Assembly (NCBI GenBank): GCA_017465085.1
Contig: JAFTWW010000034.1
Coordinates: forward strand, 1-55,260
From: Clostridia bacterium
GTDB taxonomy: Bacteria > Bacillota > Clostridia > Oscillospirales > Acutalibacteraceae
Direction: 5' to 3'
DNA: 55,260 nucleotides
In this document: positions 14,112-55,260 of the stretch, one piece after another
How the letters are laid out: every line of letters begins with the position of its first letter
Numbering within the stretch: position 1 is the stretch's first letter
Notes under the pieces: model-generated
Seen by the model: only the letters and a program-made list of their open reading frames with translations
What the model was told of the DNA's origin: nothing
The model's database searches: none
Program-made: the position numbers and the translations under genes

Positions 14112-15126
14112 CTTTATACATCTCCTCTACATCTTTTTGAGTCATTTTACCTTCCTCAATAGCGCTCTTGATATTCTGCCAACAGGCTGCGGCGTGATCC
14201 TCATTTATGAGAATCTCCTTAGCCTTATTCTTAAGGCAAACCTTAAGGGCATTATCGCAACGGGGCGCAAAGGGACAGCCATCGGGCATATTGAGAAGGT
14301 CAACAGGTGTTCCGCCTATGGGTTCAAGACGCTTACCATCGGTATTAACGCTTGGTATTGAACGCATAAGGCCATTTGTATATTCGTGCTTGGGATTGTA
14401 GAATATTTCATCTGCAGTTCCTCTTTCACACACCTCACCCGCATACATAACGATAACCTCATCACACATTTCGGCAACAACGCCTAAATCGTGGGTAATC
14501 ATTATGATGGACATTCCAAGTTTTTTCTGCAGATCCTTCATAAGATCAAGAATCTGAGCCTGAATGGTAACATCAAGAGCGGTGGTGGGCTCATCTGCAA
14601 TAAGAATATCGGGCTCACAGGCAAGGGCCATAGCAATCATAACACGCTGACGCATACCGCCCGAGAACTCGTGGGGATACTGCTTAACTCGCTTTTCGGG
14701 CTCGTTAACACCAACTAAGGCGAGCATCTCAATAGCTCTTTCAAGCGCCTGCTCCTTATTTCTATCGGTATGAAGCATTATTGCCTCAACCAACTGATTT
14801 CCTACTGTGAAAACGGGGTTAAGACTTGTCATCGGGTCCTGAAAGATAATGCTTATCTTATTTCCTCTGACAGTATTCATAACCTCTTTTGATGCGCCTA
14901 CAAGCTCCTCGCCGTTAAGCTTAACGCTACCCGAAACAATTCTTCCCGGGTTGGCAAGAATCTGGAGAATGGAATAGGCGGTAACGCTCTTACCCGAGCC
15001 TGATTCTCCAACGATTCCTAAAACCTTTCCCTTATCAAGAGAAAAGGATATTCCGTTAACGGCCTTAACCTCACCTGCAGGGGTGAAAAAGGAGGTGTGC
15101 AAATCTGTTACTTTCAAAAGTTCCAT
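14104..15126 (-). CDS. oppD: Oligopeptide ABC transporter ATPase OppD
   Basis: Partner ATPase of OppF. 340 residues with Walker [14 protein letters not shown], signature [14 protein letters not shown], Walker [13 protein letters not shown] and the C-terminal domain with [14 protein letters not shown]. The C-terminus is extended by an acidic, Lys-rich tail of about 30 residues. It starts 12 bases after the oppC stop behind AAGGAGG. Confidence 0.93.
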
Positions 15127-15138
15127 TTTATTTCCTCC

Positions 15139-16221
15139 TTATTTCTTAAGCTTCGGGTCAAAGGCATCGCGCAGACCATCGCCTAAAAGGTTTAGGGATA
15201 AAACTATAAGGCAGATAGTTACTGCAGGGATAATAAGACGGTAGCCGTAGCTGTAAATACCATCCAAAGCATCCGAAGCAAGAGAGCCAAGACTTGGCAT
15301 AGGCATATCAACACCAAGGCCTAAGAATGACAGATAGCTTTCGGTGAAAATAGCCGAAGGAATCTGAAGAGCGGTGGAGATAATCAATACGCTTATGCAG
15401 TTTGGCAGCATATGACGTTTAATAATATGGCTTGACTTAGCGCCGATAGAACGGGCGGCCAAAACATAATCCTGCTGCTTGATGGAAAGAATCTGACCGC
15501 GTACCAAACGAGCCATACTTACCCAATAAAGCAGGGCGAAAACGATAAATATACTTATCATACCCGTACCCAGCTTTGCAAGGCCTGTGCCCTCAATTTT
15601 GGGAGCCAAGGTTACATTGAGTATGGATGAAAGCAGAATTATCATAAGAAGATCGGGCAGAGAATAGATTATATCAACTATTCTCATCATCACAAGGTCA
15701 ACCTTGCCGCCGTAAAATCCTGATACCGAGCCGTAAACGGCGCCGATAACAAGAACTATAAGACTTGCGAAAAAGCCAACAAGCAGAGAAACTCGGGTGC
15801 CGTAAATTACGCGGATGGCATAATCTCTACCCGCAGAATCGGTACCGAAGATATGGGGGAATACCTTCTCCCCTGCCGCTATTCTTTCGAGTTCGGTTTC
15901 GCCGTACTCAAAAGGCTTCAGGTTATTATAGGAAGAATCAACGCTCTGACCGGGGGTGATACCCAACTGATCGGAATAGTTATAGGGGTAAATCATTGGT
16001 ACAAAAGCGGCGATTAAAACTATAACGCTGATTATAATAAGGCAAATCATCGCGATTTTGTTTTTAGCAAGACGGCGCATACCATCCTTAAAGAAGGTGG
16101 TGCTTTCGCGCATACGCTGCTGCATAAACTTTTCTTCATCGGTTGCCTTTTCAAAGCTTTTAAGATCAAGCTGTAAGCTTAAAGGATTCTTCGAAGGCAT
16201 AGCATCAATATCTTTATTCAT
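15139..16221 (-). CDS. oppC: Oligopeptide ABC transporter permease OppC
   Basis: Membrane permease of 360 residues. A cytoplasmic N-terminal OppC_N region is followed by a first helix at about residues 57-78, then a cluster of further helices; the inner-membrane coupling motif is seen around ARSIGAKSSHIIKRHMLPN. Between the first helix and the permease core is a hydrophilic loop of about 60 residues, standard for OppC. Lies 11 bases downstream of oppB. Confidence 0.92.
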   Translation of the reverse strand: MNKDIDAMPSKNPLSLQLDLKSFEKATDEEKFMQQRMRESTTFFKDGMRRLAKNKIAMICLIIISVIVLIAAFVPMIYPYNYSDQLGITPGQSVDSSYNNLKPFEYGETELERIAAGEKVFPHIFGTDSAGRDYAIRVIYGTRVSLLVGFFASLIVLVIGAVYGSVSGFYGGKVDLVMMRIVDIIYSLPDLLMIILLSSILNVTLAPKIEGTGLAKLGTGMISIFIVFALLYWVSMARLVRGQILSIKQQDYVLAARSIGAKSSHIIKRHMLPNCISVLIISTALQIPSAIFTESYLSFLGLGVDMPMPSLGSLASDALDGIYSYGYRLIIPAVTICLIVLSLNLLGDGLRDAFDPKLKK

Positions 16222-16232
16222 TGTTCTGCCTC

Positions 16233-17168
16233 CTAACTGAAATCTACTCTGGGATCGAATATTTTGTAGCAGATATCCGAAAGAAGAGTCATAATTACCA
16301 TAATTGTTGCAAGGAAAATTGTGGTACCCATAATCATAGGATAATCACGGTTGATAATGCTTGAGAAGAAGTAGTTACCAAGACCCGGAACTGCAAAAAT
16401 CTTCTCAACAACAAGACTACCCGTGAGAATATAAGCAATCATAGGACCAACATAGGTTATAACGGGGGTTACCGCATTTTTAAGGGAGTGCTTGAAGATA
16501 ACCTTAACGGGAGAAACACCCTTGGCTCTTGCGGTACGGATATAATCCTGACCTAAAACATCAAGCATACTTGACCTTGTAAGACGGGTTATATAAGCCA
16601 TAGGATAAAGGCTCAGTGAAATCACGGGAAGCACAAGACCGCCTGCGGTTGAGCCGTTTGATGGGAATAAGGGAATTGTGATACACAGCAACAACAGCAG
16701 TATAGTAGCTATAACAAAGGATGGCATAGCAACCGATGCGGTTGAGAGCACCATTATTACCTTATCTATCACTTTATTATGGAAAACAGCAGCAAGAGCG
16801 CCGAATATAAGGCCCATAATAATCGCGATACCTGCCGCCATAAGACCCAATTTACCGCTGGTGGCAAAGCCTTCAACCAAAAGATCGGAAACCTCACGGC
16901 CGCGGTTTTTAATGGAGGGACCGAAATCAAACTCCAGAACTCCCTTAAGGTATGTTACATACTGCTCCATAACGGGCTTATCAAGACCGTATTTTGCTTC
17001 TAAAGCGGCAGTAACGGCGGGGGTGGTAGCCTTTTCGCTAAGGAAGGGGCCGCCAGGAATCGCTTTCATTGCGAAAAATGTAATCGTGATTACAAGAAAT
17101 ACCGTAAATAATGCAAGCAACAAACGCTTTACGATATACAAAGCTAACTTGGAATCCAAAATATTCAT
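16233..17168 (-). CDS. oppB: Oligopeptide ABC transporter permease OppB
   Basis: First gene of the operon. 311 residues with about six membrane helices, the N-terminal helix preceding FFAMKAIPGGPFL (typical of OppB/DppB) and the coupling motif in DYIRTARAKGVSPVKVIFKHSLKN. A consensus promoter lies about 95 bases upstream (17264-17292). Confidence 0.93.
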   Translation of the reverse strand: MNILDSKLALYIVKRLLLALFTVFLVITITFFAMKAIPGGPFLSEKATTPAVTAALEAKYGLDKPVMEQYVTYLKGVLEFDFGPSIKNRGREVSDLLVEGFATSGKLGLMAAGIAIIMGLIFGALAAVFHNKVIDKVIMVLSTASVAMPSFVIATILLLLLCITIPLFPSNGSTAGGLVLPVISLSLYPMAYITRLTRSSMLDVLGQDYIRTARAKGVSPVKVIFKHSLKNAVTPVITYVGPMIAYILTGSLVVEKIFAVPGLGNYFFSSIINRDYPMIMGTTIFLATIMVIMTLLSDICYKIFDPRVDFS

Positions 17169-17263
17169 CCTCTCAAAATTGTATTATAACGAGTTTCAAA
17201 GACAAATCAGTCACACCCGAAGTGTTTTATAGGCGTAGTAACCCATTAAATAATTATATTGAA

Positions 17264-17292
17264 ATTATACCACAAACTTGTACCATTGTCAA
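17264..17292 (-). promoter_or_regulatory. Consensus promoter of the opp operon
   Basis: Minus strand TTGACA (17292-17287), exactly 17 bases, TATAAT (17269-17264). Both hexamers are perfect. The leader of about 90 bases to oppB has no obvious terminator or riboswitch. Confidence 0.85.
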
Positions 17293-17371
17293 TTCAAAAC
17301 ATCATTATGGTAATGCAATCTCACGAAGATAATTATATAATATTAACAGCAAAAATTAAAGAGGAAAATAT

Positions 17372-17938
17372 ATGATATCTGACAGGATAAAATTACTAAG
17401 AGAAAGCCACAACTTAACGCAGAGCTCGGTGGCAAAGCGCTTTGGAACAGCCAAAGCAGCGGGACTCAAATCAGATTTTAGGATAAGGATTTCACGCTGT
17501 GGCATTGTTAAAATACTCGTTAATCCGACAGGATTAACTGCGTTTTGTGCCTCGCCCCACCATAAAATCCTTTTATCATAAAATTCTGCGACCTAAAAGG
17601 CGCGGTTTTATGAGTGGATTTTTGTGATGCGAAGCACATAAGGCTAACGCCTATGTGCGCCAAAAAGCCAAAAGACACCTTAAAACCGCCCTTTTAGGCT
17701 GACTTGAGTCCCGCTGCTTTGGCTAACCCGTTCAAGTGTTAACGCTTGGGAAATGGGATTTTCAGTACCTTCCACACCTTATATAGTTGAATTATCGCAT
17801 TTATTTAATGTTTCTACCGATTATTTGCTGGGTGTTGACGACAGCGCCAGCGTTGACGTTAACGGCCTTACCGACCTTGAAATAGCTGCTGTAGTAAACA
17901 TAGTAGATCGATTAAAAGAGGGACATAAGATAAAATAA
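17372..17938 (+). pseudogene. XRE-family regulator gene interrupted by a MITE
   Basis: The first part (17372-17448) encodes MISDRIKLLRESHNLTQSSV..., the start of an XRE helix-turn-helix. The rest resumes after the insertion at 17728 with RSSVNAWE-type recognition-helix residues and the family motif SHLFNVSTDYLLGV. Joining 17448 to 17728 gives an uninterrupted 95-residue protein. The inserted length plus target duplication (279 bp) is a multiple of three, so both halves are in one frame, but the insert carries TAA stops (first at 17579-17581). The start follows AGAGGAAAATAT. It was probably a small repressor; whether it controlled the divergent opp operon is unknown. Confidence 0.8.
17449..17724. 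mobile_element. 276-bp MITE with 26-bp terminal inverted repeats
   Basis: The left end begins AGCCAAAGCAGCGGGACTC and the right end is its inverted copy, 25 of 26 bases matching. The direct repeat AAC flanks both sides (17446-17448 and 17725-17727), the expected 3-bp target duplication. There is no transposase. Internal palindromes include GTTAATCC-GACA-GGATTAAC, CACATAAGGC-TAAC-GCCTATGTG and a long outer pair CCTAAAAGGCGCGGTTTTA with TAAAACCGCCCTTTTAGG. The parent transposon family cannot be named from the ends alone. Confidence 0.8.
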
Positions 17939-17972
17939 AAAATCCTCACCTTTACGGTGAGGATTTTTGCTT
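17936..17972. terminator. Bidirectional terminator between the XRE gene and rplQ
   Basis: AAAATCCTCACC pairs with GGTGAGGATTTT around TTTAC, with A/T-rich tails on both sides. It ends both the XRE remnant and the ribosomal cluster. 17973-18066 holds one further weak stem (TTAGTAC with GTACTAA) and no gene. Confidence 0.85.
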
Positions 17973-18066
17973 TTAATTATTTAGTACACACATCATCTCG
18001 GACCCATTTGCGTTTCCGAAAGTAGTTAAACTGTGGTGAAAATGTGAGTACTAAACCCTAAGAGAA

Positions 18067-18408
18067 TTAAACCAACTCGATGATAGCCATCTCTGCTGCA
18101 TCTCCACGGCGGGGGCCTGTCTTAATAATACGGCAGTAGCCACCGTTAACGTCCTTATACTTAGGAGCGATTTCGCTGTAAAGCTTTGCAACAACATCTT
18201 CCTTAGTAATGAACGCCAAAGCCTGACGCTTACTGTGGAGACTATCATTTTTAGCGAGTGTAATATACTTCTCTGTCATAGCGCTTACTTCTTTAGCACG
18301 GGTAACGGTTGTTTCAATTCTGCCCTTTTCAAGCAGGAAGGTAACCATTGCGCGAAGCATAGCTGTTCTATGATCACTTGCTCTTCCAAGTTTACGAGTA
18401 CCTGGCAT
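18067..18408 (-). CDS. rplQ: 50S ribosomal protein L17
   Basis: Last gene of the alpha segment, 113 residues, normal bacterial short form. Recognised by [30 protein letters not shown] at its N-terminus. It follows rpoA by 19 bases and is followed by the terminator at 17936-17972. Confidence 0.97.
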
Positions 18409-44243: not shown

Positions 44244-45170
44244 ATGAAAAAAATCGTATCAATCGTTTTGGCCCTTACGCTTTGCATTGGCGCCTGCCTC
44301 TCCCTTACCGCTTGCGGTGATAAGGCAGATTTTACCGTTGGCATCTGTCAGCTGATGGAGCACGAATCCCTTGATAAAGCCACCAACGGCTTTATTGATG
44401 CTTTAACCGAGACTCTCGAAAAAGAGGGCAAAACCGTAGAGTTTGATACTCAGGTTGCAGGCGAGGCCAATCTTTGCACCACCGTTATCAACGCCTTTAC
44501 TTCCAAGAAGGTTGATTTAATTATGGCAAACGCTACCCCCGCTCTTTTAGCGGCCGCTAATGCTACCACCACCATCCCCGTACTCGGCACCTCTGTTACC
44601 GATTACAACGATACCTTCTCAGGCAATATCCCCGAAAATGTTTCGGGCACCTCTGATGCCGTTCCCTTTGATGAGCAGGCCCAGATGATGATTGATTCCT
44701 TAGGTCTTAAAAAGGGCGATAAGGTTGGCGTTATTTATTGCACCAACGAATCAAACTCCCTTATTCAGTATGAGGCTGTTAAGAAGCTCTTTGAAGCAAA
44801 GGAAATCGTTGTTGAGGCTTATACCTTCTCCGATACCACCGAGCTTCAGGCTGTTGTAACCAATGCGGCTAACAACTCTAAGGCTATCTATGTTCCCTCT
44901 GATAATACCGTTGCCGATAACGATTCTGTTGTAGGCACCATCTGCACCGAGAAGAATGTGCCCGTATTCACCAGCTACGGCGGCGCTATCTGCTATGCAA
45001 GTCTTGCTATTGACTACTATGAGTTAGGCTACAAGACCGGTGAAATGGCAGCCGAAATTCTCCTTGGCAACAAAGAGCCTAAGGATTTCGAAATTGCAAC
45101 CCTTACACCCAGTGTTGTTTATAACGATGAGCTTTGTGGAAAACTTGGCATCACCGTTCCTGAAAAATAA
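44244..45170 (+). CDS. trpX: Tryptophan ABC transporter substrate-binding lipoprotein
   Basis: 308 residues; signal peptide with lipobox LTAC (Cys at about residue 24), then the ABC_sub_bind fold (COG2984 type) with DLIMANATPALLAAANATTTIPVLGTSVTDY. Tryptophan as substrate is inferred from the T-box and the trpXYZ arrangement described in other Firmicutes. RBS AAGGAG. Confidence 0.88.
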   Translation: MKKIVSIVLALTLCIGACLSLTACGDKADFTVGICQLMEHESLDKATNGFIDALTETLEKEGKTVEFDTQVAGEANLCTTVINAFTSKKVDLIMANATPALLAAANATTTIPVLGTSVTDYNDTFSGNIPENVSGTSDAVPFDEQAQMMIDSLGLKKGDKVGVIYCTNESNSLIQYEAVKKLFEAKEIVVEAYTFSDTTELQAVVTNAANNSKAIYVPSDNTVADNDSVVGTICTEKNVPVFTSYGGAICYASLAIDYYELGYKTGEMAAEILLGNKEPKDFEIATLTPSVVYNDELCGKLGITVPEK

Positions 45171-45190
45171 TAAATCTTCTGAGGTAAAAA

Positions 45191-46108
45191 ATGGCTTTTC
45201 TTTATGCTTTGCCGGGCGCTGTTGCCGAAGGTCTTATATGGGGACTTATGGCAATCGGTGTCTATATATCATATAAAATTCTTGATATTGCCGACCTGAC
45301 TGTTGATGGCTCTATCTGCACGGGCGGCTGTGTTTGTGCCGTGCTTATATCCCACGGTGTTCCCGTGTGGGTGAGTGTTTTAGTATCCTTCATTGCAGGT
45401 ATGCTCACAGGCGTTATCACGGGCCTTTTGCATACGGCTCTTGGTATCCCTGCAATTCTTGCGGGAATACTTACACAGCTTATGCTCTATTCCATTAACC
45501 TTTCTATCCTTGGCAGTAAATCCCTTATTGCCATCGACCCGAGGGCTAATAATCTACTTGTTCATATGAGTGATAATATCCGCTCTATAATCGTTGCAGG
45601 CGGACTTATAGTGGCAGTTATCATTCTGCTTTGGCTCTTCTTCTATACCGAGGTTGGTCTTACCCTTAAATCTACAGGCGATAACCCCGATATGAGCCGC
45701 GCTCAAGGAATAAATGTTAAGCTTAATAAGGTTATAGGTCTTGCTATTGCCAACGGCATTGTTGCCTTTGCGGGAGCATTGCTTGCGCAGTATAAGGGTT
45801 CTGCCAACATCAACGATGGCAGAGGCGCAATAGTAATCGGCCTTGCGGCAATATTCATTGGTCTTTCGGTTTCTCTTAGAATCAAGCCTAATTTTGTTGT
45901 AAGCCTTATCGGTGTTATCGGCGGCGGAATTACATATTATATAGTTTATAACTTTGTAGTTCTCTTAGGCCTTAAAACCGATTTCCTTAAAATGCTCTCG
46001 GCAATAATCGTTACCATCTTCCTTGCTGTTCCATATATTAAGAGTGAGTATTTCAGCAAGCCAAAGGAACTACCTGCCGAAGTAAACGGAGGTGACTCCG
46101 ATGCTTAA
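45191..46108 (+). CDS. trpY: Tryptophan ABC transporter permease
   Basis: 305 residues with about eight or nine membrane helices, of the branched-chain permease superfamily. Motif TLKSTGDNPDMSRAQGINVKL is the usual cytoplasmic coupling region. Starts 20 bases after trpX; its end overlaps trpZ by eight bases. Confidence 0.88.
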   Translation: MAFLYALPGAVAEGLIWGLMAIGVYISYKILDIADLTVDGSICTGGCVCAVLISHGVPVWVSVLVSFIAGMLTGVITGLLHTALGIPAILAGILTQLMLYSINLSILGSKSLIAIDPRANNLLVHMSDNIRSIIVAGGLIVAVIILLWLFFYTEVGLTLKSTGDNPDMSRAQGINVKLNKVIGLAIANGIVAFAGALLAQYKGSANINDGRGAIVIGLAAIFIGLSVSLRIKPNFVVSLIGVIGGGITYYIVYNFVVLLGLKTDFLKMLSAIIVTIFLAVPYIKSEYFSKPKELPAEVNGGDSDA

Positions 46109-46898
46109 AATAAACAATCTTCACAAAACCTTTAATGCAGGCACCATAAATGCCAAAACCGCATTAAACGGCCTTGACCTTACCCTTAATGATGGAGATT
46201 TCGTTACCGTTATCGGCGGTAACGGCGCAGGTAAATCCACAATGCTTAATGCTATAGCAGGCGTATGGAAGCCCGATTTCGGCAGTATAGAAATTGATGG
46301 CGTAGATGCTACGAATATGCCCGAGCACAAGCGCGCCGCATTTTTAGGCAGAGTTTTTCAGGACCCAATGAAAGGCACCGCTCCCGATATGGAGATTGCC
46401 GAAAATCTTGCCATAGCCGCAAGAAGAGGCACCAAGAGGAAGCTTATATGGGGTATTAAGAAGGATGAGCGCAAGAAATACAAGGAGCTCCTTGCCACTT
46501 TAGAGCTTGGCCTTGAAACACGGCTCTCCTGTAAGGTTGGCTTGCTTTCGGGCGGTCAGCGCCAAGCAATAACTCTGCTTATGGCAACCCTCAGGCGACC
46601 GAAGCTCCTGCTCCTTGATGAGCACACCGCCGCTCTTGACCCTAAGACCGCGGCAAAGGTATTGGAAATCACCGATAAGCTTGTAAATGAGAATAAGCTT
46701 ACTACACTTATGATAACCCACAATATGCACGATGCTATTGCCCACGGCAACCGCCTTATAATGATGCACGAGGGCAAGGTTATTGTTGATGTTTCGGGCG
46801 AGGATAAGAAAAAGCTTACCATAAGTGAGCTTTTAGGTCTTTTCGAAAAGGCAAGCGGAAGCGCATTTGCAAGTGATAAAGTAATGCTTTCTAAATAA
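46101..46898 (+). CDS. trpZ: Tryptophan ABC transporter ATPase
   Basis: 265 residues from ATG 46101 (CGGAGGTGA upstream, inside the trpY end). Walker A GGNGAGKST, signature LSGGQRQAITL, Walker B LLLLDEHTAALDP, and the His switch in MITHNMHDA. The DEHTA in place of DEPTS is typical of this subfamily (COG1101). Confidence 0.9.
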   Translation: MLKINNLHKTFNAGTINAKTALNGLDLTLNDGDFVTVIGGNGAGKSTMLNAIAGVWKPDFGSIEIDGVDATNMPEHKRAAFLGRVFQDPMKGTAPDMEIAENLAIAARRGTKRKLIWGIKKDERKKYKELLATLELGLETRLSCKVGLLSGGQRQAITLLMATLRRPKLLLLDEHTAALDPKTAAKVLEITDKLVNENKLTTLMITHNMHDAIAHGNRLIMMHEGKVIVDVSGEDKKKLTISELLGLFEKASGSAFASDKVMLSK

Positions 46899-46902
46899 AA
46901 TC

Positions 46903-46935
46903 AAAGAACGGAAATCCTTGGATTTCCGTTCTTTT
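46903..46935. terminator. Bidirectional terminator between trpZ and the AraC gene
   Basis: AAAGAACGGAAATCC pairs perfectly with GGATTTCCGTTCTTT around TT, with T-runs. Confidence 0.9.
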
Positions 46936-47733
46936 TTATTGAGCATTACGCTCTTTATACTTTGCGGGAGATAAGCCCATCAGCTTTTTGAACTGCTTGC
47001 TGAAATGGTATTCATCATAGAAGCCTAAGTTACAGGCAATTTCCTTTATGCTCATTTCGGGGAACATATCAAAATATGAAACCGCCTCTTTAATCTTAAA
47101 GCTCAAAATATACTGATGAATAGTGGTACCGAACTTTGCCTTGAACTTATTCTCAGCCGTTTTTACCGAAACGTTGGCCTTATTTGCCAACTCCTCGTTG
47201 CTGAAGAATTTTTCGGGGTTGTTGTGAATTATCTTTTTTATTTTAGCGGCAGTCTGATAATCCGAAACATCGAGGGAATTTTCATAAAGCTCACACATTA
47301 AAAGCTCAAAGTATAAATCTGCCTTACGGCTATTTCCCGAAAGAAAACTGTTTACAATTTCGGAAAAAAGCTTTTTAATATTTTTATTCTCCGAGGCATC
47401 TATAAGGGTGTTGACGGCGTTTCCACCGAGAGAGCCATCCGCCGTAGCGCCTATATCCCCCTCCTCACAGCTTACGTGGAAATACATAGTTTTAGTATTT
47501 TCATCGCAGGGTGAAACTCCGTAATGAGTATTGCCCGCAGTTAAGATAATAAGGGAATCCTTTTTAAGCTCGTAGGTTTTTCCGTTTTGCCCTAATTTCC
47601 AACCGCCCTGAAGTAGATATATAAAATCGTGGTCCCGCATTTTCCTTTTCGGATGGACAAAGGGAGCCCTGTAAAAATTGATGTTTGCCTCGGTTATTTT
47701 ATGCAATTTTTCGGTTGAGAATATATTTTTCAT
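46936..47733 (-). CDS. AraC-family transcriptional regulator
   Basis: 265 residues. N-terminal cupin-like sensing domain (about 20-130; HDFIYLLQGGWKLGQNGKTYEL and ILTAGNTHYGVSP), C-terminal double helix-turn-helix domain (about 160-262) with FSNEELANKANVSVKTAENK and the family signature CNLGFYDEYHFSKQFKKLMG. Divergent from the glycyl radical operon across 117 bases, so most likely its regulator, responding to a sugar-like ligand. Confidence 0.9.
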   Translation of the reverse strand: MKNIFSTEKLHKITEANINFYRAPFVHPKRKMRDHDFIYLLQGGWKLGQNGKTYELKKDSLIILTAGNTHYGVSPCDENTKTMYFHVSCEEGDIGATADGSLGGNAVNTLIDASENKNIKKLFSEIVNSFLSGNSRKADLYFELLMCELYENSLDVSDYQTAAKIKKIIHNNPEKFFSNEELANKANVSVKTAENKFKAKFGTTIHQYILSFKIKEAVSYFDMFPEMSIKEIACNLGFYDEYHFSKQFKKLMGLSPAKYKERNAQ

Positions 47734-47850
47734 ACCCTGCTCCTTTCACATCAATTTGCTTTATTTTACATCTCATTTTCCTATTTGTCAATTTTATTTT
47801 TTTATTATTTGTGCTATATTAAAATCGGAATAAAGTGAGGTGAGGGATTT

Positions 47851-48552
47851 ATGAGAATTTTCGGCAAGGGCTTTAACTTTGCGCAGGATGGCCCAGGCAA
47901 CCGATTTGTTTATCATCTATCGGGCTGTAATATGCGCTGCCTTTGGTGCTCCAATGCTGATGGAATGGATATGGCGGCAGGCAAGGAATACAGCGTGGAA
48001 GAGGTAATAAAAGAGGCGCTTTCCTGCAGACCTATGTTCTTTTCGGGCGGCGGCGTTACCTTTACGGGCGGAGAGGCCACCTTGCAGGCAGAAGAACTGA
48101 TAAAGGTGCTTAAGGCTCTAAAAAAAGAGGGTGTGCACACCTGCCTTGAAACCAACGCCACATCAAAGAGGCTTGCGGAAATTTCCGAGTTTGTTGATTA
48201 TTTTATAATGGACTTTAAGCATTTTGATAGCGTTGTTCTAAAAGAATACACAGGTGTTGGCAACGAAACCATAAAGGAAAACTTTGAAGCCCTTAATAAG
48301 CTAAGAAATCAGTTACATATAAGAATCCCCCTCATCAACGGAGTTAATGCCAAAAATCCCCAAGGGTTTGCAGAATATTTTGCCAAATACTCTTCACCCA
48401 ACACCGTTTACGAATTCCTTTTATACCACGAATACGGCAAAGAAAAATGGCAGGGTGAATATAAAATCAAGGATGGATTTGTATCTAAAGAAACCCTTAA
48501 ATCATTTGTAGATACCTTTGAAGCCTTCGGTCTTAAAACTATAACAACATAA
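47851..48552 (+). CDS. Glycyl radical enzyme activase (radical SAM)
   Basis: Generates the glycyl radical on the enzyme encoded next, using S-adenosylmethionine and a [4Fe-4S] cluster. 233 residues with the Cys-x3-Cys-x2-Cys motif at Cys26, Cys30 and Cys33 (SGCNMRCLWCS), then TGGEATLQ. It lacks the Cys-rich ferredoxin-like insert of activases for most dehydratase-type glycyl radical enzymes and is about the size of pyruvate formate-lyase activase. RBS GTGAGGTGAGGG. First gene of a tight operon (13 bases to the next). Confidence 0.9.
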   Translation: MRIFGKGFNFAQDGPGNRFVYHLSGCNMRCLWCSNADGMDMAAGKEYSVEEVIKEALSCRPMFFSGGGVTFTGGEATLQAEELIKVLKALKKEGVHTCLETNATSKRLAEISEFVDYFIMDFKHFDSVVLKEYTGVGNETIKENFEALNKLRNQLHIRIPLINGVNAKNPQGFAEYFAKYSSPNTVYEFLLYHEYGKEKWQGEYKIKDGFVSKETLKSFVDTFEAFGLKTITT

Positions 48553-48565
48553 GGAGCTAAATACT

Positions 48566-50893
48566 ATGAAAAGCATTTATAAATCAGGTGAAATTACCGC
48601 AATGGCAAAGGCTCTCTACCGCGAGGAGAGAGAAATCAAAAGGCTTGACGGTTGGTTTATAGCCAAAGAAATCGAAATGAACAACTCCTCTAAATACGAG
48701 GGGCTTGATGAAGAGGTTAAAAAGGCCTATCTCTTATGCGATGTTTTAAGAGAGCTTACTCTGACACTCAGCGATAACGCCATCTTTGTAGGCGCGCAGC
48801 GCGATGCCTTTGCAAGAACCTACGCCCTTATTAACCCCTCCTTCACTGTTAAGGGCTTTTCGGGTTACTGTGATCCTATGGCAATCTACGGCGATATTGA
48901 GCCTAATAGCGAATTTACGGAAGAAAGAATTCAAAAGGTGCGCTCCTTTACGGCAGATACCCCCTATGTTAAGGAGCTTAACGCCACCTATGCGGATGCA
49001 GAAAACTACACTAAAGAGGTTATCTTCTTCGTTGAGCAGGTAACGGGCCATGTTATCCCCGATTTCAGATATGCTCTTAAATACGGTATTGATGAGTTGA
49101 TAGCAAAGGCCGAGGCTAAGGAGGGCGAGTTTTATAAGGCTGCCGCCGTTTCCCTTGGCGGTGTAAAAATACTTATAAGTAGATACTTAGAGCTTATAGC
49201 CGAACAGAAAAAGACCTGCAACGAAAAAAGACTTGCTCAGTTAGAGCTGCTTGAGGATTCCCTTAAACATATAAGCGGCAAGGGCGCGAGAAATCTTTAT
49301 GATGCTTTACAGCTTTACATTCTCCTTTGGGAGATTATGTGCTTAGAGCAGGCTCCCAACCCCTATGCCTTCTCGGTTGGTAACGCCGATAGAATTTTCG
49401 AGCCCTACAGAAATGATTTAACCCGCGAGGAAGCAAGTGAATTATTCAAGCATTTCCTTGTTTTCTATAATGTTGGTGACAGAAGCTGGGCTATCTCACA
49501 GAATGTTATCGTAGGCGGCAGAGATTTAGATGGTAACGACCTTACGAGCGTTATGTCCTACGCCATACTTGATGCTTACTACGATATGAATCTTCCACAG
49601 CCTATCCTTTCGGTTAAGCTTCATAAGAACACTCCACAAAAGCTTTATGAGGAAATGGGCAGATTTTTCTTCTCGGCAGGCGCCCTTACTCCCTCGCTCT
49701 TTAATGATGATGCCTTGTTTGAGGTACTAAGAAATAACGGAATTGATGAAAAGGATATTCCCGATTACAGTGTTGCAGGATGTCAGGAGCCGCTTATTAT
49801 GGGTAAGGATAACGGCAACACCACAAACAGCTGGTTAAGTCTCCCAAAGGTTCTTGAAATGGTGCTTTTAGGCGGAAAGTCTGCTATTACGGGTGAAAAG
49901 CTTATGGATACCGAAGATTATACCCTCGAAAACATCCGTGAAGTTTTCTATCGCACCTTAGATAAGGTTATAGATGAGATGGCAAAATACGGAAACGGGG
50001 CATCTGTAGCCCTGAGTAACCTCCGTGTTCCCTTCCTCAGCTGCTTTATGGGTGGCCTTGAATACGGCCACGATATGCGTGACCCCAAAAATCAGGGAAC
50101 CAAGTATAACGGAAGCGGATGTCTTGTTCACGGTCTTACCGTTCTTGCCGATTCCTTTATTGCCATTGATAAGTTTGTAGAAAAATATCCTGACCAAAAG
50201 GATATGCTTATCGATGCCATTAAGAAGGATTTCGAGGGCTATGATGAGCTTCACGCATTCTTACTCGGCTGTTCTAAATTCGGCAATAACATTGAAGAGG
50301 TTGATAACGAGGCGGCAGAAATTGCAAATAAGGTATCCGATATGCTCCGCTCTAAGAAAAACTACCTTGGCAACCCCTTCCGTCCCGATTTCTCAAGCCC
50401 CTCAACCCACCTTACCTACGGTTATTGGGTTGGCGCTACCCCCGATGGAAGAAAATCGCGCGATATGTTAGGCTACGGTGTTGACCCCCTATACGGCGAA
50501 GCTTCAAACGGCTTGGGCTTCAGAATGTTATCTAATATGAAGCTTCCGTTCCACCAATTTAACGGCGGCTACGCCTCCCACCTTGGTATAGACCCCAAAT
50601 ACTTTACGGGTGAGACCTATGAGGCAAAGGGATTAGAGTTTTATAACAATGTTGTAAATCCCCTTTTCTTTAACGAGTATCAGCAGGGCGTTTCTCCCTT
50701 CTATCTCTATGTTAATGTTACCACTCCTGAAATTTTGAGAAAGGTTTTGGCTAACCCCAAAAAGTATGCTCCCAGCGGAGTTTATATTATGAGAATCCAC
50801 GGTACCTTTGTAAACTTCCTTGACCTTTCCCCCGAAATTCAGCAGGATATAATAACAAGGCTCGACCTTAAATCCACCTGCATTGGTTGTTAG
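48566..50893 (+). CDS. Glycyl radical enzyme, dehydratase type, substrate unknown
   Basis: 775 residues in the pyruvate formate-lyase/glycerol dehydratase superfamily. The thiyl Cys406 and Glu408 lie in VAGCQEP, the Cys-x-Glu pattern of glycyl radical dehydratases (the Cys-Cys of pyruvate formate-lyase is absent). GKDNGNTTNSWLSLPKVLEM follows as in dehydratases. The radical Gly746 is in RIHGTFVNF, replacing the usual RVxGY pattern, and DLSPEIQQDIITR follows as normal. GHVIPD near residue 165 aligns with the substrate-site His region. Strictly anaerobic. Context (isomerase, sugar kinase, AraC) points to a sugar- or polyol-like substrate; I cannot match it to a characterised class. Confidence 0.88.
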   Translation: MKSIYKSGEITAMAKALYREEREIKRLDGWFIAKEIEMNNSSKYEGLDEEVKKAYLLCDVLRELTLTLSDNAIFVGAQRDAFARTYALINPSFTVKGFSGYCDPMAIYGDIEPNSEFTEERIQKVRSFTADTPYVKELNATYADAENYTKEVIFFVEQVTGHVIPDFRYALKYGIDELIAKAEAKEGEFYKAAAVSLGGVKILISRYLELIAEQKKTCNEKRLAQLELLEDSLKHISGKGARNLYDALQLYILLWEIMCLEQAPNPYAFSVGNADRIFEPYRNDLTREEASELFKHFLVFYNVGDRSWAISQNVIVGGRDLDGNDLTSVMSYAILDAYYDMNLPQPILSVKLHKNTPQKLYEEMGRFFFSAGALTPSLFNDDALFEVLRNNGIDEKDIPDYSVAGCQEPLIMGKDNGNTTNSWLSLPKVLEMVLLGGKSAITGEKLMDTEDYTLENIREVFYRTLDKVIDEMAKYGNGASVALSNLRVPFLSCFMGGLEYGHDMRDPKNQGTKYNGSGCLVHGLTVLADSFIAIDKFVEKYPDQKDMLIDAIKKDFEGYDELHAFLLGCSKFGNNIEEVDNEAAEIANKVSDMLRSKKNYLGNPFRPDFSSPSTHLTYGYWVGATPDGRKSRDMLGYGVDPLYGEASNGLGFRMLSNMKLPFHQFNGGYASHLGIDPKYFTGETYEAKGLEFYNNVVNPLFFNEYQQGVSPFYLYVNVTTPEILRKVLANPKKYAPSGVYIMRIHGTFVNFLDLSPEIQQDIITRLDLKSTCIGC

Positions 50894-50902
50894 GAGATAT
50901 TT

Positions 50903-51919
50903 ATGAAATTTGAACCTTTATTTTTTGAAAGAAACCGCGTAGGCCGTGTATATACGGGCGGCAAGCTTTTTAGCGGCCTTTTCGGTGATGATGCGGTTGA
51001 TGGCTACCTGCCTGAAGAATGGATAGCCTCTGCAGTTAAGGCGCTTAATAAGGATTCCCTTTCCGAAAAGGAGGGCGTTTCCAAAATCAAGGATAGCGAC
51101 ATTTATTTCGATGAGCTTTTGGAGAAATACGGTGATGAGCTTTTAGGCAGGGGTAATAAGCTTCGCATACTAGTTAAAGCCCTTGACAGCGCCATTCGTC
51201 TTCCCGCTCAGGTGCATCCCGATAAGGCGTTTTCTCAAAAATATTTTAATTCAAGCTATGGCAAAACAGAGTGCTGGACCATTCTTGATACCCGTGAGGA
51301 TGCAAAGATATTCTTCGGCTTTCAGGATGGCGTTACCAGAGAGGATTTGGAAAAGGCCATAGACCTTAGCGAAACCGATCCCGATGCTATGGAAAGGCTG
51401 ATGGAGGTTATCGTACCTAAAAAGGATGAGGTATATTTTGTTCCTGCCCGCACGGTACACGCCATCGGCAAGGGTTGTCTTATCTTAGAGGTGCAGGAGC
51501 CCACCGATTTTACCATCCAGCCCGAGCATTTCTGCGGTGAATACAGACTCAACGATAAAGAGATGTATTTAGGCCTTGAAAGAAGCGTTGCGGTAGATTG
51601 CTTTGATTTCGGCAAGGCTCCCGATTCCCTCCTTGAGCCCACACTTATCTATAATGAGGATGGAGCCGCTAAGTATTCGGTCGTAAGTAAAGATCATACC
51701 GATTGCTTTATCATTAACCGCTTTAATTTAACGGGCGGTAAGGCTACCCTTAACGTTGAAAACAGCTACGGCATATATATCGTAACCGAGGGCGAAGGCG
51801 CGCTTTCGGGAGGAGGCTACGAAAAGCGAATTAAAAAGGGCGATTACTTCTTTATGCCCGCGTGCTGTATGGGCAAATATGAAATAAGCGGTAATCTTAC
51901 CGTTACTGAATGTTATTAA
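50903..51919 (+). CDS. manA: Class I phosphomannose-isomerase-like protein
   Basis: 338 residues of the cupin-type zinc enzyme family. Zinc ligands visible: Gln and His in LPAQVHPDK (about residue 100), Glu in GKTECW, His in ARTVHAIGKG. Normally interconverts mannose 6-phosphate and fructose 6-phosphate, but relatives in catabolic operons act on other sugars. In this operon a role on the product of the glycyl radical enzyme or kinase is inference. RBS AGGAGA; ten bases after the glycyl radical enzyme gene. Confidence 0.85.
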   Translation: MKFEPLFFERNRVGRVYTGGKLFSGLFGDDAVDGYLPEEWIASAVKALNKDSLSEKEGVSKIKDSDIYFDELLEKYGDELLGRGNKLRILVKALDSAIRLPAQVHPDKAFSQKYFNSSYGKTECWTILDTREDAKIFFGFQDGVTREDLEKAIDLSETDPDAMERLMEVIVPKKDEVYFVPARTVHAIGKGCLILEVQEPTDFTIQPEHFCGEYRLNDKEMYLGLERSVAVDCFDFGKAPDSLLEPTLIYNEDGAAKYSVVSKDHTDCFIINRFNLTGGKATLNVENSYGIYIVTEGEGALSGGGYEKRIKKGDYFFMPACCMGKYEISGNLTVTECY

Positions 51920-51929
51920 GGATGAAGAT

Positions 51930-53210
51930 ATGCAGATTATAGGAATTGATCTTGGAACAACAAGCATTTGCGGTGTTGTAGTAGATAGTAAAACGGGCGT
52001 GGTGCTTAAATCCAAAACTGTTAGCAGCGAGGCGTTTATTGATAGCCCAAATGCCTTTGAGAAGATACAGTCTCCCGAAAAAATCATATCACTTGCAACC
52101 GAAATTCTCGATGGGTTTATAACCGAAGAAACCGCCGCCATCGGCGTTACGGGACAGATGCACGGCATTGTTTATACCGATATCCACGGTAATGCAGTAA
52201 GTCCCCTTTATACCTGGCAGGATAAAAGAGGTAACGAACTGTATCAGGATACCACCTATGCAAAATATTTGGGCAGTAACACGGGCTACGGTAATGTTAC
52301 GGATTTTTACAATAAGGTTAACGGCATCCGTCCCGAAAGTGCTGTGGGTTACTCAACCATCCACGATTATCTTGTTATGAAGCTTTGCGGACTTAAAAAG
52401 GCCAAAATTCATATAAGCGATGCGGCAAGCTTTGGTTTGTTCAATCTGGAGGGCAAAGCCTTTGATTACGACTGTGATTTAGATGTGGTTGATAACTACA
52501 CGGTGGCAGGCGTATATAAAAACATCCCCGTTAGCGTTGCTATCGGAGATAATCAGGCAAGTGTTTTTTCAACCCTTGCGGGTGATGATGCGGTGCTCCT
52601 TAATGTTGGAACGGGAAGTCAGGTTTCGGCAATAAACGATAAAATTATAGTAAGTGAGAATCTTGAAACAAGGCCCTATTTTGATGGCAAATATTTAATC
52701 GTTGGCGCCGCCCTTTGCGGTGGCAGAGCCTTTGCCGTTCTTAAGGATCTTTATAAGGCTTTACTTAACACTGTTTGCAAAACGGATGATGGCAAGGTTT
52801 ATAAAATTATGGATGAGATGCTTGAAAAAACCACATCCTCACCCCTTAAGGTTGATACAAGATTTTCAGGCACAAGAGCCAATGAGGGTATCCTCGGCAG
52901 CATTACGGGCATCTCCGCTGATAATCTCACGCCCGAAAACCTTACCTTCGGTGTTATCGAGGGTATGGTGGATGAGCTATACGGTCTATATAAAGAGATG
53001 AATATAAATAAGAAGCTACTTTTCGGCTCGGGCAACGGGCTAAGAAAGAACAAGCCCTTTATCAAGCTCTCCGAGGATAAGTTTGGAGCAGAGCTTAAAA
53101 TACCTGCTCACAAGGAAGAGGCGGCATTCGGTGCTGCCCTCTTCGGCGCAATTGCGGCAGGAGTTTTCAAGGATTCCAAGGAAGCGCAGGAGCTTATCAG
53201 GTATGAATGA
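51930..53210 (+). CDS. FGGY-family carbohydrate kinase (sedoheptulokinase-like)
   Basis: 426 residues. N-terminal phosphate motif GIDLGTTSICGVVVD, the TGQMHGIVY substrate-site motif, TWQDKRG, adenosine-site GTGSQVS, and LLFGSGNGLRKNKPF near the C-terminus. Shorter than typical xylulokinases (about 500) and resembling sedoheptulokinases by the GTGSQ region. Phosphorylates a ketose or polyol, exact substrate unknown. Eleven bases after the isomerase gene, last in the operon. Confidence 0.85.
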   Translation: MQIIGIDLGTTSICGVVVDSKTGVVLKSKTVSSEAFIDSPNAFEKIQSPEKIISLATEILDGFITEETAAIGVTGQMHGIVYTDIHGNAVSPLYTWQDKRGNELYQDTTYAKYLGSNTGYGNVTDFYNKVNGIRPESAVGYSTIHDYLVMKLCGLKKAKIHISDAASFGLFNLEGKAFDYDCDLDVVDNYTVAGVYKNIPVSVAIGDNQASVFSTLAGDDAVLLNVGTGSQVSAINDKIIVSENLETRPYFDGKYLIVGAALCGGRAFAVLKDLYKALLNTVCKTDDGKVYKIMDEMLEKTTSSPLKVDTRFSGTRANEGILGSITGISADNLTPENLTFGVIEGMVDELYGLYKEMNINKKLLFGSGNGLRKNKPFIKLSEDKFGAELKIPAHKEEAAFGAALFGAIAAGVFKDSKEAQELIRYE

Positions 53211-53325: not shown

Positions 53326-53332
53326 AAATAGA

Positions 53333-53366
53333 AAGAACTTGGGGTTTCCCCCAAGTTCTTTTTTAT
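53333..53366. terminator. Bidirectional terminator, kinase and dockerin gene
   Basis: AAGAACTTGGGG pairs with CCCCAAGTTCTT around a four-base loop, followed by T6 on the plus strand and T-containing sequence on the minus. Confidence 0.85.
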
Positions 53367-55260
53367 TTACTGTAAAAGCTTTAATCTGAGAGCAGATTCA
53401 TCTGCTGTATCTACCGCTCCGCTTATATCTATATCTGCGGCAAGCTTATCTATTTTAACAGATGTGTTATCATCATTATATCTTGCTATACGGGCAAGGT
53501 CGCGTAAGTCAACGCCGCCATAGGCGTTACAGTCACCCTCAAACTTGATTTTTGCTATAAGCTCATCGTTATCGGCATAAGTCTCATAAAGCTCGTTTGT
53601 GTTATCAATAATGGTGTTTACAAACTGCTTTGTGTTATAAAGGGTTGATAAATCAAGGCTTCTCATACTGCTTAAGAAGGTTTCATCAGCAGCGCTAAGG
53701 GTTGTTTCCTCAACTTTTTTATATAAAACCATACTGCCGACATAAGCCTCTATATCAAGTCCGCCTTCAATACACAGCATCAAGGTGCTAAATACCACGC
53801 CATCACCAAACGATGTTCTAATAGCATCTATACCTCCGCTTATAATATCCTCATCGGTATAGGTTATCCACTTTCCTGCATTATCGGCGGCAACATCTAA
53901 AGTGTTTCCGCTCTTTTGCTTTGCAGTGCCGCCGCCTGTGAGGTAGGTATATATTTTACCACCCTGATTTACGGTTTCATAGTATATATTTATATAAAAT
54001 CCATCGTATTCGCTTATATCTATTCCGTCTCCAAAATCGAAACGGTCTTCCCTGCCGCAGAAAAGAATTCTATCATAGGAATCCTTTCCTAAATCACTAT
54101 CGGCGGTATTATCGTTAATATCGTAATAAGAATAATAATCTCCTAACATTTCGGCGGTTGCGCCAAAGGGAAGAGCTTCGCTTTCGGCAGTTGCAAAGAT
54201 ATTATCTTCTCCTACATATGCCGCACCTGCATTATTAACCTTAACTCCCGCGGGCTTAAGACCTGTGCTGACAGATGAGTACATATTGTTATAGGCAGCC
54301 CTTATTTCTTCGTTGCTTTCAAACAGTACTAATTCGGTAGCATAGGCAGACTGTGCCAATTCCAAAGCTTCAACAAAGGCTTCCGTGTTTTGGTAGCCTG
54401 TAAAATCAAAGGCTTTAGCCTTGCTTACCAAATCAGCTCCGTTTACATATTCGGGAACAGGAGCTTTATAGCTTACTCTCAAGCAACCTACACTTACATT
54501 AGCCTCAGCGCCATCTAAAGCCTGCAATTCAAATCTTGTGAAGGTGTGACTTGTGAAGAAGGTTCTCCAATCACTAACACTACCCATTGGCATAAGCTCA
54601 TCAAGGGAGATCTTTATCCACTTATCCTCATTTGCTTCGGTTATATCTAAATAATATCCGCTAGGACTAATATTACCTCCATCATAGGCTAGACGGAAGC
54701 CCATCTTACCTTCTGTTACAATAGAGTTAATCTTAACATAGAGCCAACCTTCAGCTTCCGTGCCTTTTGATTTCGTTGAACCAGCTGCGAACTGATCGCC
54801 ATCGCCCATAAACAAGGTATAGGAGTTGGTACCGTTTGCCGTAGCTCTTGAAAGACCATCAGACATATCTAAGGTAGCATATTTCTCGCCGTAAGCAAAC
54901 TCTTCATCAGAAGTTGAAGTTTCGGTGGCGGTGGACCAAACATTGGTCTGATTTGCGCTTGATTCTTTTCTGTAAGTAGTAGGATAAAGCCAACTCTCAG
55001 AGGTTAACATATCCTCCCAAGCGGCTTCAAGCGCAAGAACGGATAATTCCTTTTTATAGTATTCCTTAGCATCGTTCAGAGCGGATACGAAGTTCTCGGT
55101 GTTAGCATAGCTTGAAGTGTCTAAACTCATAGCTTCCTTAACGAGCTCAATTCCAGAAAGCTCAGGAACATCAGTAACTGCAAATTCTCTTACTATACAG
55201 CTTATTGTTAAGTTGGCTACAGCGCCATCCAATAACATAAGCTCAAATTTTCCGAAATAA
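53367..55260 (-). CDS. Dockerin-containing repeat protein (5' end outside window)
   Basis: At least 630 residues, open through the right edge (the frame continues upstream of an internal Met at 55238 into FGKFEL). It alternates beta-rich modules resembling carbohydrate-binding jelly rolls (FELQALDGAEANVSVG recurs as FELMLLDGAVANLTIS) with helical repeats (GADLVSKAKAFDFTGYQNTEAF, matched by GIELVKEAMSLDTSSYANTENF). The last 65 residues form a type I dockerin: two calcium-loop repeats, GDCNAYGGVDLRDLARIARY and ADIDISGAVDTADESAL. Probably secreted and docked to a cohesin scaffold. No catalytic domain is visible in the part seen. Confidence 0.85.
   Translation of the reverse strand, partial: YFGKFELMLLDGAVANLTISCIVREFAVTDVPELSGIELVKEAMSLDTSSYANTENFVSALNDAKEYYKKELSVLALEAAWEDMLTSESWLYPTTYRKESSANQTNVWSTATETSTSDEEFAYGEKYATLDMSDGLSRATANGTNSYTLFMGDGDQFAAGSTKSKGTEAEGWLYVKINSIVTEGKMGFRLAYDGGNISPSGYYLDITEANEDKWIKISLDELMPMGSVSDWRTFFTSHTFTRFELQALDGAEANVSVGCLRVSYKAPVPEYVNGADLVSKAKAFDFTGYQNTEAFVEALELAQSAYATELVLFESNEEIRAAYNNMYSSVSTGLKPAGVKVNNAGAAYVGEDNIFATAESEALPFGATAEMLGDYYSYYDINDNTADSDLGKDSYDRILFCGREDRFDFGDGIDISEYDGFYINIYYETVNQGGKIYTYLTGGGTAKQKSGNTLDVAADNAGKWITYTDEDIISGGIDAIRTSFGDGVVFSTLMLCIEGGLDIEAYVGSMVLYKKVEETTLSAADETFLSSMRSLDLSTLYNTKQFVNTIIDNTNELYETYADNDELIAKIKFEGDCNAYGGVDLRDLARIARYNDDNTSVKIDKLAADIDISGAVDTADESALRLKLLQ

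Follow-up and report, generated by a model that had tools for sequence, protein, structure and literature searches.

Glycyl radical enzymes (GREs) shape anaerobic gut chemistry, including the conversion of choline to trimethylamine and of isethionate to sulfide and the use of hydroxyproline, and those carrying a Cys-x-Glu motif are dehydratases and lyases. Among the sugar-linked members, YbiW and PflD are described as converting anhydrohexitol phosphates to 1-deoxyfructose-6-phosphate (PMC12441222). The subject here is an operon encoding a GRE of a separate clade, located in a 55,260 bp stretch of a Clostridia bacterium of the family Acutalibacteraceae (assembly GCA_017465085.1, contig JAFTWW010000034.1, positions 1 to 55,260), which is referred to as the window. 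The operon consists of genes for a radical S-adenosylmethionine (SAM) activase, the GRE, a class I phosphomannose isomerase (PMI)-like protein and an FGGY carbohydrate kinase, and a gene for an AraC-family regulator diverges from it. We propose with moderate confidence that it forms a regulated catabolic module, in which radical C-O elimination on a free sugar-like polyol would give a deoxyketose that is then phosphorylated.

The GRE and Its Family

On the basis of (i) fold, (ii) catalytic residues and (iii) the accompanying activase, the window protein is assigned as a GRE that departs from the loop signature. It possesses a PFL-like barrel fold, scoring about 330 bits with the Pfam PFL-like model, the lowest among the three PFL-like proteins of its own assembly (1.66 Mb in 52 contigs; the others score 690 and 790 bits). 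Curated NCBIfam cut-offs and Pfam cut-offs served as membership thresholds throughout. The GRE was found to lie well under the cut-off in all 11 NCBIfam families matched, the best being PFL2-3 (238 vs. 678 bits), with PflD at 189 vs. 1109 bits. Membership of PFL, PflD, CutC, HypD, HpsG/HpfG and the arylacetate decarboxylases (IAD, HPAD) was rejected on these scores; for IslA, also rejected, no NCBIfam model came up and the identity to the IslA structure is 20%. None of the solved GREs compared is more than 24% identical to the window protein.

Relatives were collected by a pattern scan favoring close homologs, and 80 of the 109 found were kept. These are 56–81% identical to the window GRE over the best segment (57–81% for the 56 relatives that were aligned). 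The family was detected in 10 of 394 genomes of the order and 14 of 391 of the class at E 1e-60, the own genome being counted in each, and is present in Extibacter muris DSM 28560, Claveliimonas bilis c-25 and Diplocloster modestus ASD4241. When 299 genomes across the phylum were searched by alignment, the window GRE scored 1415 bits and the next GREs at most 265, with no intermediates. On re-scoring, full-length members reached 1368–1424 bits, fragments of the family 527–1100 and other GREs no more than 285. A FastTree phylogeny built from 13 sequences of the family and 20 further GREs, and rooted on an own-genome GRE with the Cys-Cys motif of PFL, separated the family from PflD, YbiW and the other GREs by a branch 1.13 substitutions per site long, with modest support (0.78). 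A literature search, subscription papers lying outside its coverage, returned no paper on this clade.

The loop around the radical glycine reads RIHGTF in 88 of 89 family sequences, the remaining one (L070) ending before the loop. The comparison GREs have R(V/I)xG(Y/F)(S/A) in 34 of 35 rows, the other (L129) likewise ending short of it. The glycyl-radical domain model PF01228, which describes the RVxGY-type loop, failed to match the C-terminus of the window GRE at any E value up to 10 and scored 15.2 bits, under its 22.2 cut-off, on the relative L077; the controls YbiW and PflD gave 117 and 112 bits. Cys406, Glu408 and Gly746 are invariant in the 57 aligned sequences. Residues common to all 13 family members in the tree and absent from its 20 comparison GREs include N273, R276, K351, Q407, T420, N421, H672, Y715, H745, T747 and F748.

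The closest folds to the window GRE are those of the glycerol and 1,2-propanediol dehydratases (1r8w, 9rco, 5i2a), to which it is 24% and 21–22% identical, respectively. It differs from them in the radical loop, in having Thr-Thr in place of their His-Asp after the GCxE motif, and in a two-residue insertion before the Ser motif. Thr420 aligns with the Asp that follows GCxE in the glycerol dehydratase pocket, which we take to be the active-site residue Asp447, and the glycerol dehydratase-equivalent His and Ser, presumably with active-site roles as well, are retained in the family alignment. PflD and YbiW, which open the rings of anhydromannitol- and anhydroglucitol-6-phosphate in E. coli, share with the window GRE an eliminase fold, a sugar-type context and, in some relatives, a link to the TAL/FSA family; however, they are only 24% (E. 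coli PflD) and 22% (YbiW) identical to it, fall outside its clade, and differ in context, as the window family has a kinase beside the GRE and no phosphotransferase system (PTS) genes were seen there.

The activase resembles PflA in being a short radical SAM protein of 233 amino acids. However, it scores 147 bits with the NCBIfam PFLA model, under the cut-off of 232 (157 vs. 174 bits for PFLE_PFLC), and the loop of its target GRE is not of the usual type. An alignment of 75 activases shows their Cys motif to be conserved, and 77 activase open reading frames (ORFs) were identified among the 90 clustered loci.

Two further observations concern locus L062, where the GRE of the family is divided between two ORFs (160 and 611 amino acids) and a distant GRE relative (702 amino acids, 95 bits) lies 5' of it on the other strand.

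Conservation of the Gene Set

The gene set is real and is conserved across relatives; since the same genes recur around them, the arrangement is not due to chance. Neighbors were counted over the 80 loci, of which 76 were testable for the kinase (at least 500 bases downstream) and 68 for the PMI-like gene (3 kb downstream). Two custom profiles separated window-type from xylulokinase-type kinases. ORF calling was greedy, and a six-frame check recovered kinase genes that had seemed missing. A window-type FGGY kinase gene was found on the same strand within 3.2 kb in 58/76 loci, being immediately adjacent in 56, and a xylulokinase-type kinase lies nearby in a further 10/76. The PMI-like gene is downstream on the same strand in 30/68 loci, all of which fall among the 51 with a window-type kinase. 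The isomerase gene precedes the kinase gene in the window, L085, L087 and L088, and the kinase comes first in the other loci that have both downstream.

The window kinase (426 residues) has both FGGY domains above the Pfam cut-offs (61 vs. 28.8 bits and 37 vs. 27 bits), and no named FGGY subfamily exceeds its NCBIfam cut-off. It resembles XylB in possessing these two domains and a GQMHG motif but differs in scoring 92 bits with TIGR01312, against a cut-off of 380, and in being shorter than this 481-position XylB model, which the kinase of L077 passes with 479 bits. The window kinase may also resemble sedoheptulokinases. The Met-His pair of GQMHG has been described for XylB-I, GntK and AraB-III (PMC3245297). 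At E 1e-50, 28 of the 394 genomes of the order contain kinase relatives, including all 10 with the GRE, where they are 45–100% identical. The kinase was rejected as an exclusive marker of the pathway, as 18 of the 394 genomes have relatives without the GRE. Beside the GRE-kinase-isomerase operon of L031, a second pair was observed (14735–18364), consisting of a xylulokinase-type FGGY kinase and a different PFL-like GRE, the latter scoring 355 bits with PF02901.

The PMI-like protein shares with ManA (1qwr) the Gln-x-His, Gly-Lys-x-Glu and His motifs and the cupin domain, but lies below the ManA NCBIfam cut-off (75.5 vs. 116.2 bits) and has Gln where ManA-like copies have Arg. This Gln was found in 16/16 orthologs at least 48% identical and in 35/35 PMI-like copies from the fetched loci, the window being included in both counts. 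Fourteen other PMI copies were read, with Arg in 12 and Ser in two (L167 and L168); the latter come from G381 and G209, which are the two GRE-bearing genomes of the order that lack a close ortholog, and all 10 GRE genomes of the order therefore carry an Arg-less copy. The L188 and L189 copies, which belong to the genomes of L036 and L043, have the same Ser. In PMIs the Arg probably matters for catalysis or phosphate contact; a literature search on its role gave no result.

At E 1e-80, 8 of the 394 genomes contain a match to the PMI-like protein, all 8 being among the 10 with the GRE (Fisher p 3e-15, a value which ignores relatedness, three of the eight belonging to one genus and the own genome being counted). 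In G021 the ortholog is on a different contig from the GRE. Among 23 genomes picked for having no same-strand downstream PMI gene, 7 have a close ortholog elsewhere, nearby on the other strand for L058 and outside the fetched stretch in the other 6. A housekeeping ManA was rejected as the identity of the operon gene, as the own genome has a second, Arg-bearing copy on contig C43 (L180) and the operon copy tracks the GRE across genomes. It is unlikely that the PMI-like protein is an ordinary mannose-6-phosphate isomerase.

Two kinds of protein were seen encoded 3' of the isomerase gene. One, of 814–816 amino acids, is found at L022 (12894–15335) and L023 (4923–7370), the L022 copy having no Pfam match. 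The other is probably helical and mostly 216–252 amino acids long (151 in L035), and occurs in 11 loci (L032, L033, L034, L035, L038, L039, L048, L051, L053, L057 and L061); neither Pfam nor NCBIfam matches its L038 copy, and NCBIfam does not match its L061 copy.

The remaining neighbors were scanned as a sample, with one or two representatives per cluster and many further neighbors outside it. Ribose-type ATP-binding cassette (ABC) transporters, ROK proteins, GntR-type and DeoR regulators and Zn-alcohol dehydrogenases were found in loci that we class as Lachnospiraceae-type. No PTS gene, no aldehyde dehydrogenase or microcompartment shell gene and no diol-pathway gene was detected in this sample. 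Clusters 5, 10, 11, 16, 19, 20, 22, 31, 32, 34, 35 and 36 were set aside as housekeeping, unmatched or unlinked on one representative each.

A sequence-only reading of the locus had described a divergent AraC regulator facing a four-gene operon with gaps of 9–13 bases, including a radical SAM activase and a Cys-x-Glu GRE, and these descriptions agree with the ORF list and the Pfam matches. It had also expected the GRE not to cluster with a characterized class, which is what the NCBIfam scores and the long branch apart from PflD, YbiW and 18 others indicate. Its class I PMI-like protein holds as to metal motifs and cupin domain but not as a member of ManA, and its FGGY kinase holds at the level of the domains, with no subfamily to name. 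The expectation that relatives would keep both neighbors was borne out for the kinase and only in part for the isomerase.

Proposed Pathway

The activase would set a radical on Gly746, from which it would pass to Cys406, and the GRE would then abstract hydrogen at a secondary carbinol position in a 5–7 carbon polyol, anhydro-polyol or sugar. With Glu408 assisting, the neighboring C-O bond (to a hydroxyl or ring oxygen) would be eliminated to give a deoxyketose, which the FGGY kinase may phosphorylate, probably at the far end. The ketose phosphate would pass to an aldolase/transaldolase where present, or to glycolysis. The PMI-like protein would isomerize a free sugar on a branch leading into or out of the pathway, and in some relatives a GH38 alpha-mannosidase could feed mannose to it.

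Radical 1,2-elimination is proposed because of what is established for Cys-x-Glu GREs and because of the structural neighbors. The C-C cleavage that the sequence-only reading had offered as an alternative is less likely, since the Cys-x-Glu motif and the nearest folds belong to 1,2-eliminases. That the product is a deoxy sugar with a ketone group, and not a free aldehyde, is suggested by the most constant partner being a kinase of a ketose/polyol family. As no PTS gene was seen among the neighbors scanned, phosphorylation by the FGGY kinase probably replaces that by a PTS. The GRE substrate would be unphosphorylated. A reading in which a sugar or polyol undergoes radical elimination and the product is then phosphorylated thus stands, but the earlier order of isomerization and then phosphorylation is not established because many operons are without an isomerase gene. 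As a first, speculative candidate for the substrate we suggest a 1,5-anhydrohexitol or a hexitol with the configuration of mannose.

Several observations weigh against this scheme. Neither kinase type is nearby in 8/76 loci, and the kinase relatives of the 18 GRE-less genomes are 36–45% identical to that of the window. The PMI-like gene is missing downstream in 38/68 loci, and 16 of the 23 genomes picked as above have no ortholog at least 48% identical anywhere (2 of these 16 have a 37–41% identical copy with Ser). GH38 is a minority neighbor of the family GRE, and the window's operon contains no transporter gene. TIGR00875, the aldolase/transaldolase model, has no match in 15 of 23 GRE genomes, the own genome among them, for which reason a TIGR00875 aldolase was rejected as the general last step. 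The TAL/FSA member in the operon of L005 has Phe where those of L077, L078 and L082 have Tyr, and so it resembles a transaldolase more than an aldolase if this position is, as we assume, a discriminator between the two. A 1-deoxyketose is no normal substrate for an aldose-ketose isomerase, with the result that the PMI-like protein misfits such a product. The argument for any particular substrate is one from gene context. Because of the TIGR00875 gaps, the L005 Phe and a 1-deoxyketose that would leave the isomerase idle, the general scheme is put forward at no more than moderate confidence.

Alternative Explanations

The YbiW/PflD pathway, the nearest precedent for the proposed chemistry, reportedly includes an aldolase step, and ybiW adjoins fsaA in E. 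coli. A TAL/FSA-cluster gene is present in the fetched stretch of 5/80 loci. In L005 it separates the GRE gene from the kinase gene, and in L076, L077, L078 and L082 it is near the GRE gene but on the opposite strand; in genome G659 such a gene is just 3' of the GRE. An ATP-dependent, PTS-free version may be considered, in which free 1,5-anhydroglucitol or 1,5-anhydromannitol would be converted by the GRE to 1-deoxyfructose, by the FGGY kinase to 1-deoxyfructose-6-phosphate, and by fructose-6-phosphate aldolase to hydroxyacetone and glyceraldehyde-3-phosphate. This is unlikely, as the GRE is not orthologous to PflD, being far below the PflD cut-off, the PMI-like protein would be left without a role, and TIGR00875 is unmatched in most of the GRE genomes; moreover, the FSA family is a common one, being matched in 10 of 14 control genomes. 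The PTS-linked anhydrohexitol-phosphate pathway as in E. coli was rejected, given that the neighbor sample held no PTS gene.

A second explanation is a mannose or mannoside pathway, where GH38 would free mannose in the cell, the PMI-like protein would convert it to fructose and the FGGY kinase would form a fructose phosphate, the GRE acting on another moiety such as a polyol aglycone. GH38-cluster genes are found on the same strand in L007, L009, L010, L013 and L021 and upstream in L015 (6/80 loci), with no signal sequence evident by eye in the proteins; the members in L036 and L042 are on the other strand, and the Pfam check of the cluster was on L009. A PMI-like protein that keeps its metal motifs and has lost the Arg would suit such a route, and FGGY kinases pair with free-sugar isomerases in known pathways (XylA-XylB, RhaA-RhaB; gene lists in PMC3245297). 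It is nevertheless unlikely, since the GRE-kinase pair persists in the many loci without a downstream PMI-like gene, and GH38 is rarer still.

It is also quite improbable that the GRE is a downstream diol dehydratase, acting on a C3–C4 polyol (propanediol or an analog) left from sugar cleavage after upstream steps by the kinase and isomerase. The closest folds and the retained His and Ser are in keeping with this role, but the pocket Asp is aligned with Thr420, the neighbor sample held neither aldehyde dehydrogenase nor microcompartment genes, and the constant partner is a kinase, not a dehydrogenase. Finally, loss of radical chemistry in the clade, with Gly not activated and some other function acquired, would be consistent with the missing PF01228 match and the changes around Gly (A or S to H, Y to T, S to F), but is very improbable indeed given the invariant Gly746 and Cys406 and the widespread activase with its conserved Cys motif, which a dead enzyme would hardly retain.

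Locus Organization

The coordinates of the operon and its boundaries are given in Table 1. The gaps between the four genes are 13, 9 and 10 bases, and the AraC-type cluster comprises 10 related ORFs beside family GREs, the window's own counted. Terminator-like hairpins lie on either side, in a region where the number of such sites overall is at chance level (7 found vs. 7.1 expected).

Table 1. Features of the GRE operon and its boundaries in the window.
Feature	Position	Strand	Evidence and remarks
Two-way terminator-like hairpin	46903–46934		Between upstream ABC operon and regulator gene; 14-pair stem, T-run on both strands
AraC-family regulator	46936–47733	-	ORF list; Pfam HTH_18 and AraC_binding; divergent from operon
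Radical SAM activase, 233 amino acids, CxxxCxxC	47851–48552	+	Pfam Radical_SAM and Fer4_12; NCBIfam scores
GRE, divergent clade; Cys406, Glu408, Gly746 in RIHGTF loop	48566–50893	+	Pfam PFL-like
Class I PMI-like protein; retains metal-ligand motifs, has Gln206 in place of the usual Arg	50903–51919	+	Pfam MPI_cupin_dom, 36 bits
FGGY carbohydrate kinase, 426 residues; GQMHG and WQD motifs	51930–53210	+	Pfam FGGY_N and FGGY_C
Two-way terminator-like hairpin	53330–53363		3' of operon; 15-pair stem and T-run

An ABC transporter operon (44244–46898) ends just 5' of the AraC gene, with the first hairpin in between. Its binding protein is TrpX-like (177 bits vs. a cut-off of 390), the permease-like and ATPase-like ORFs having been judged by eye, and it is probably unrelated to the GRE operon. 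On the other side, a 623-amino acid protein with no Pfam or NCBIfam match is encoded on the minus strand (53367–55238); its C-terminus appears dockerin-like by eye (GDCN...GVDLRDLARIARY). A cohesin-domain protein is encoded near the operon in the relative locus L009.

Significance

The operon may tentatively be taken to represent a deep class of GRE eliminases, possibly overlooked by virtue of the RIHGTF loop, through which gut Clostridia would run a radical sugar pathway that depends on ATP. The short activase would have co-evolved with it, the kinase would be dedicated to ketoses, and the PMI fold would have been re-purposed for an unphosphorylated sugar. If so, the substitutions flanking the radical Gly would imply a different recognition by the activase, and perhaps a different radical environment, from those of the GREs studied to date, and the RIHGTF clade could be used to examine how stringent activases are in recognizing the glycyl loop. 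The Arg-less PMI-like protein, in its tight association with the GRE, would offer a route to a new isomerase specificity. A clade which the standard model misses at the defining domain could add a reaction to the list of those carried out by GREs in the gut.

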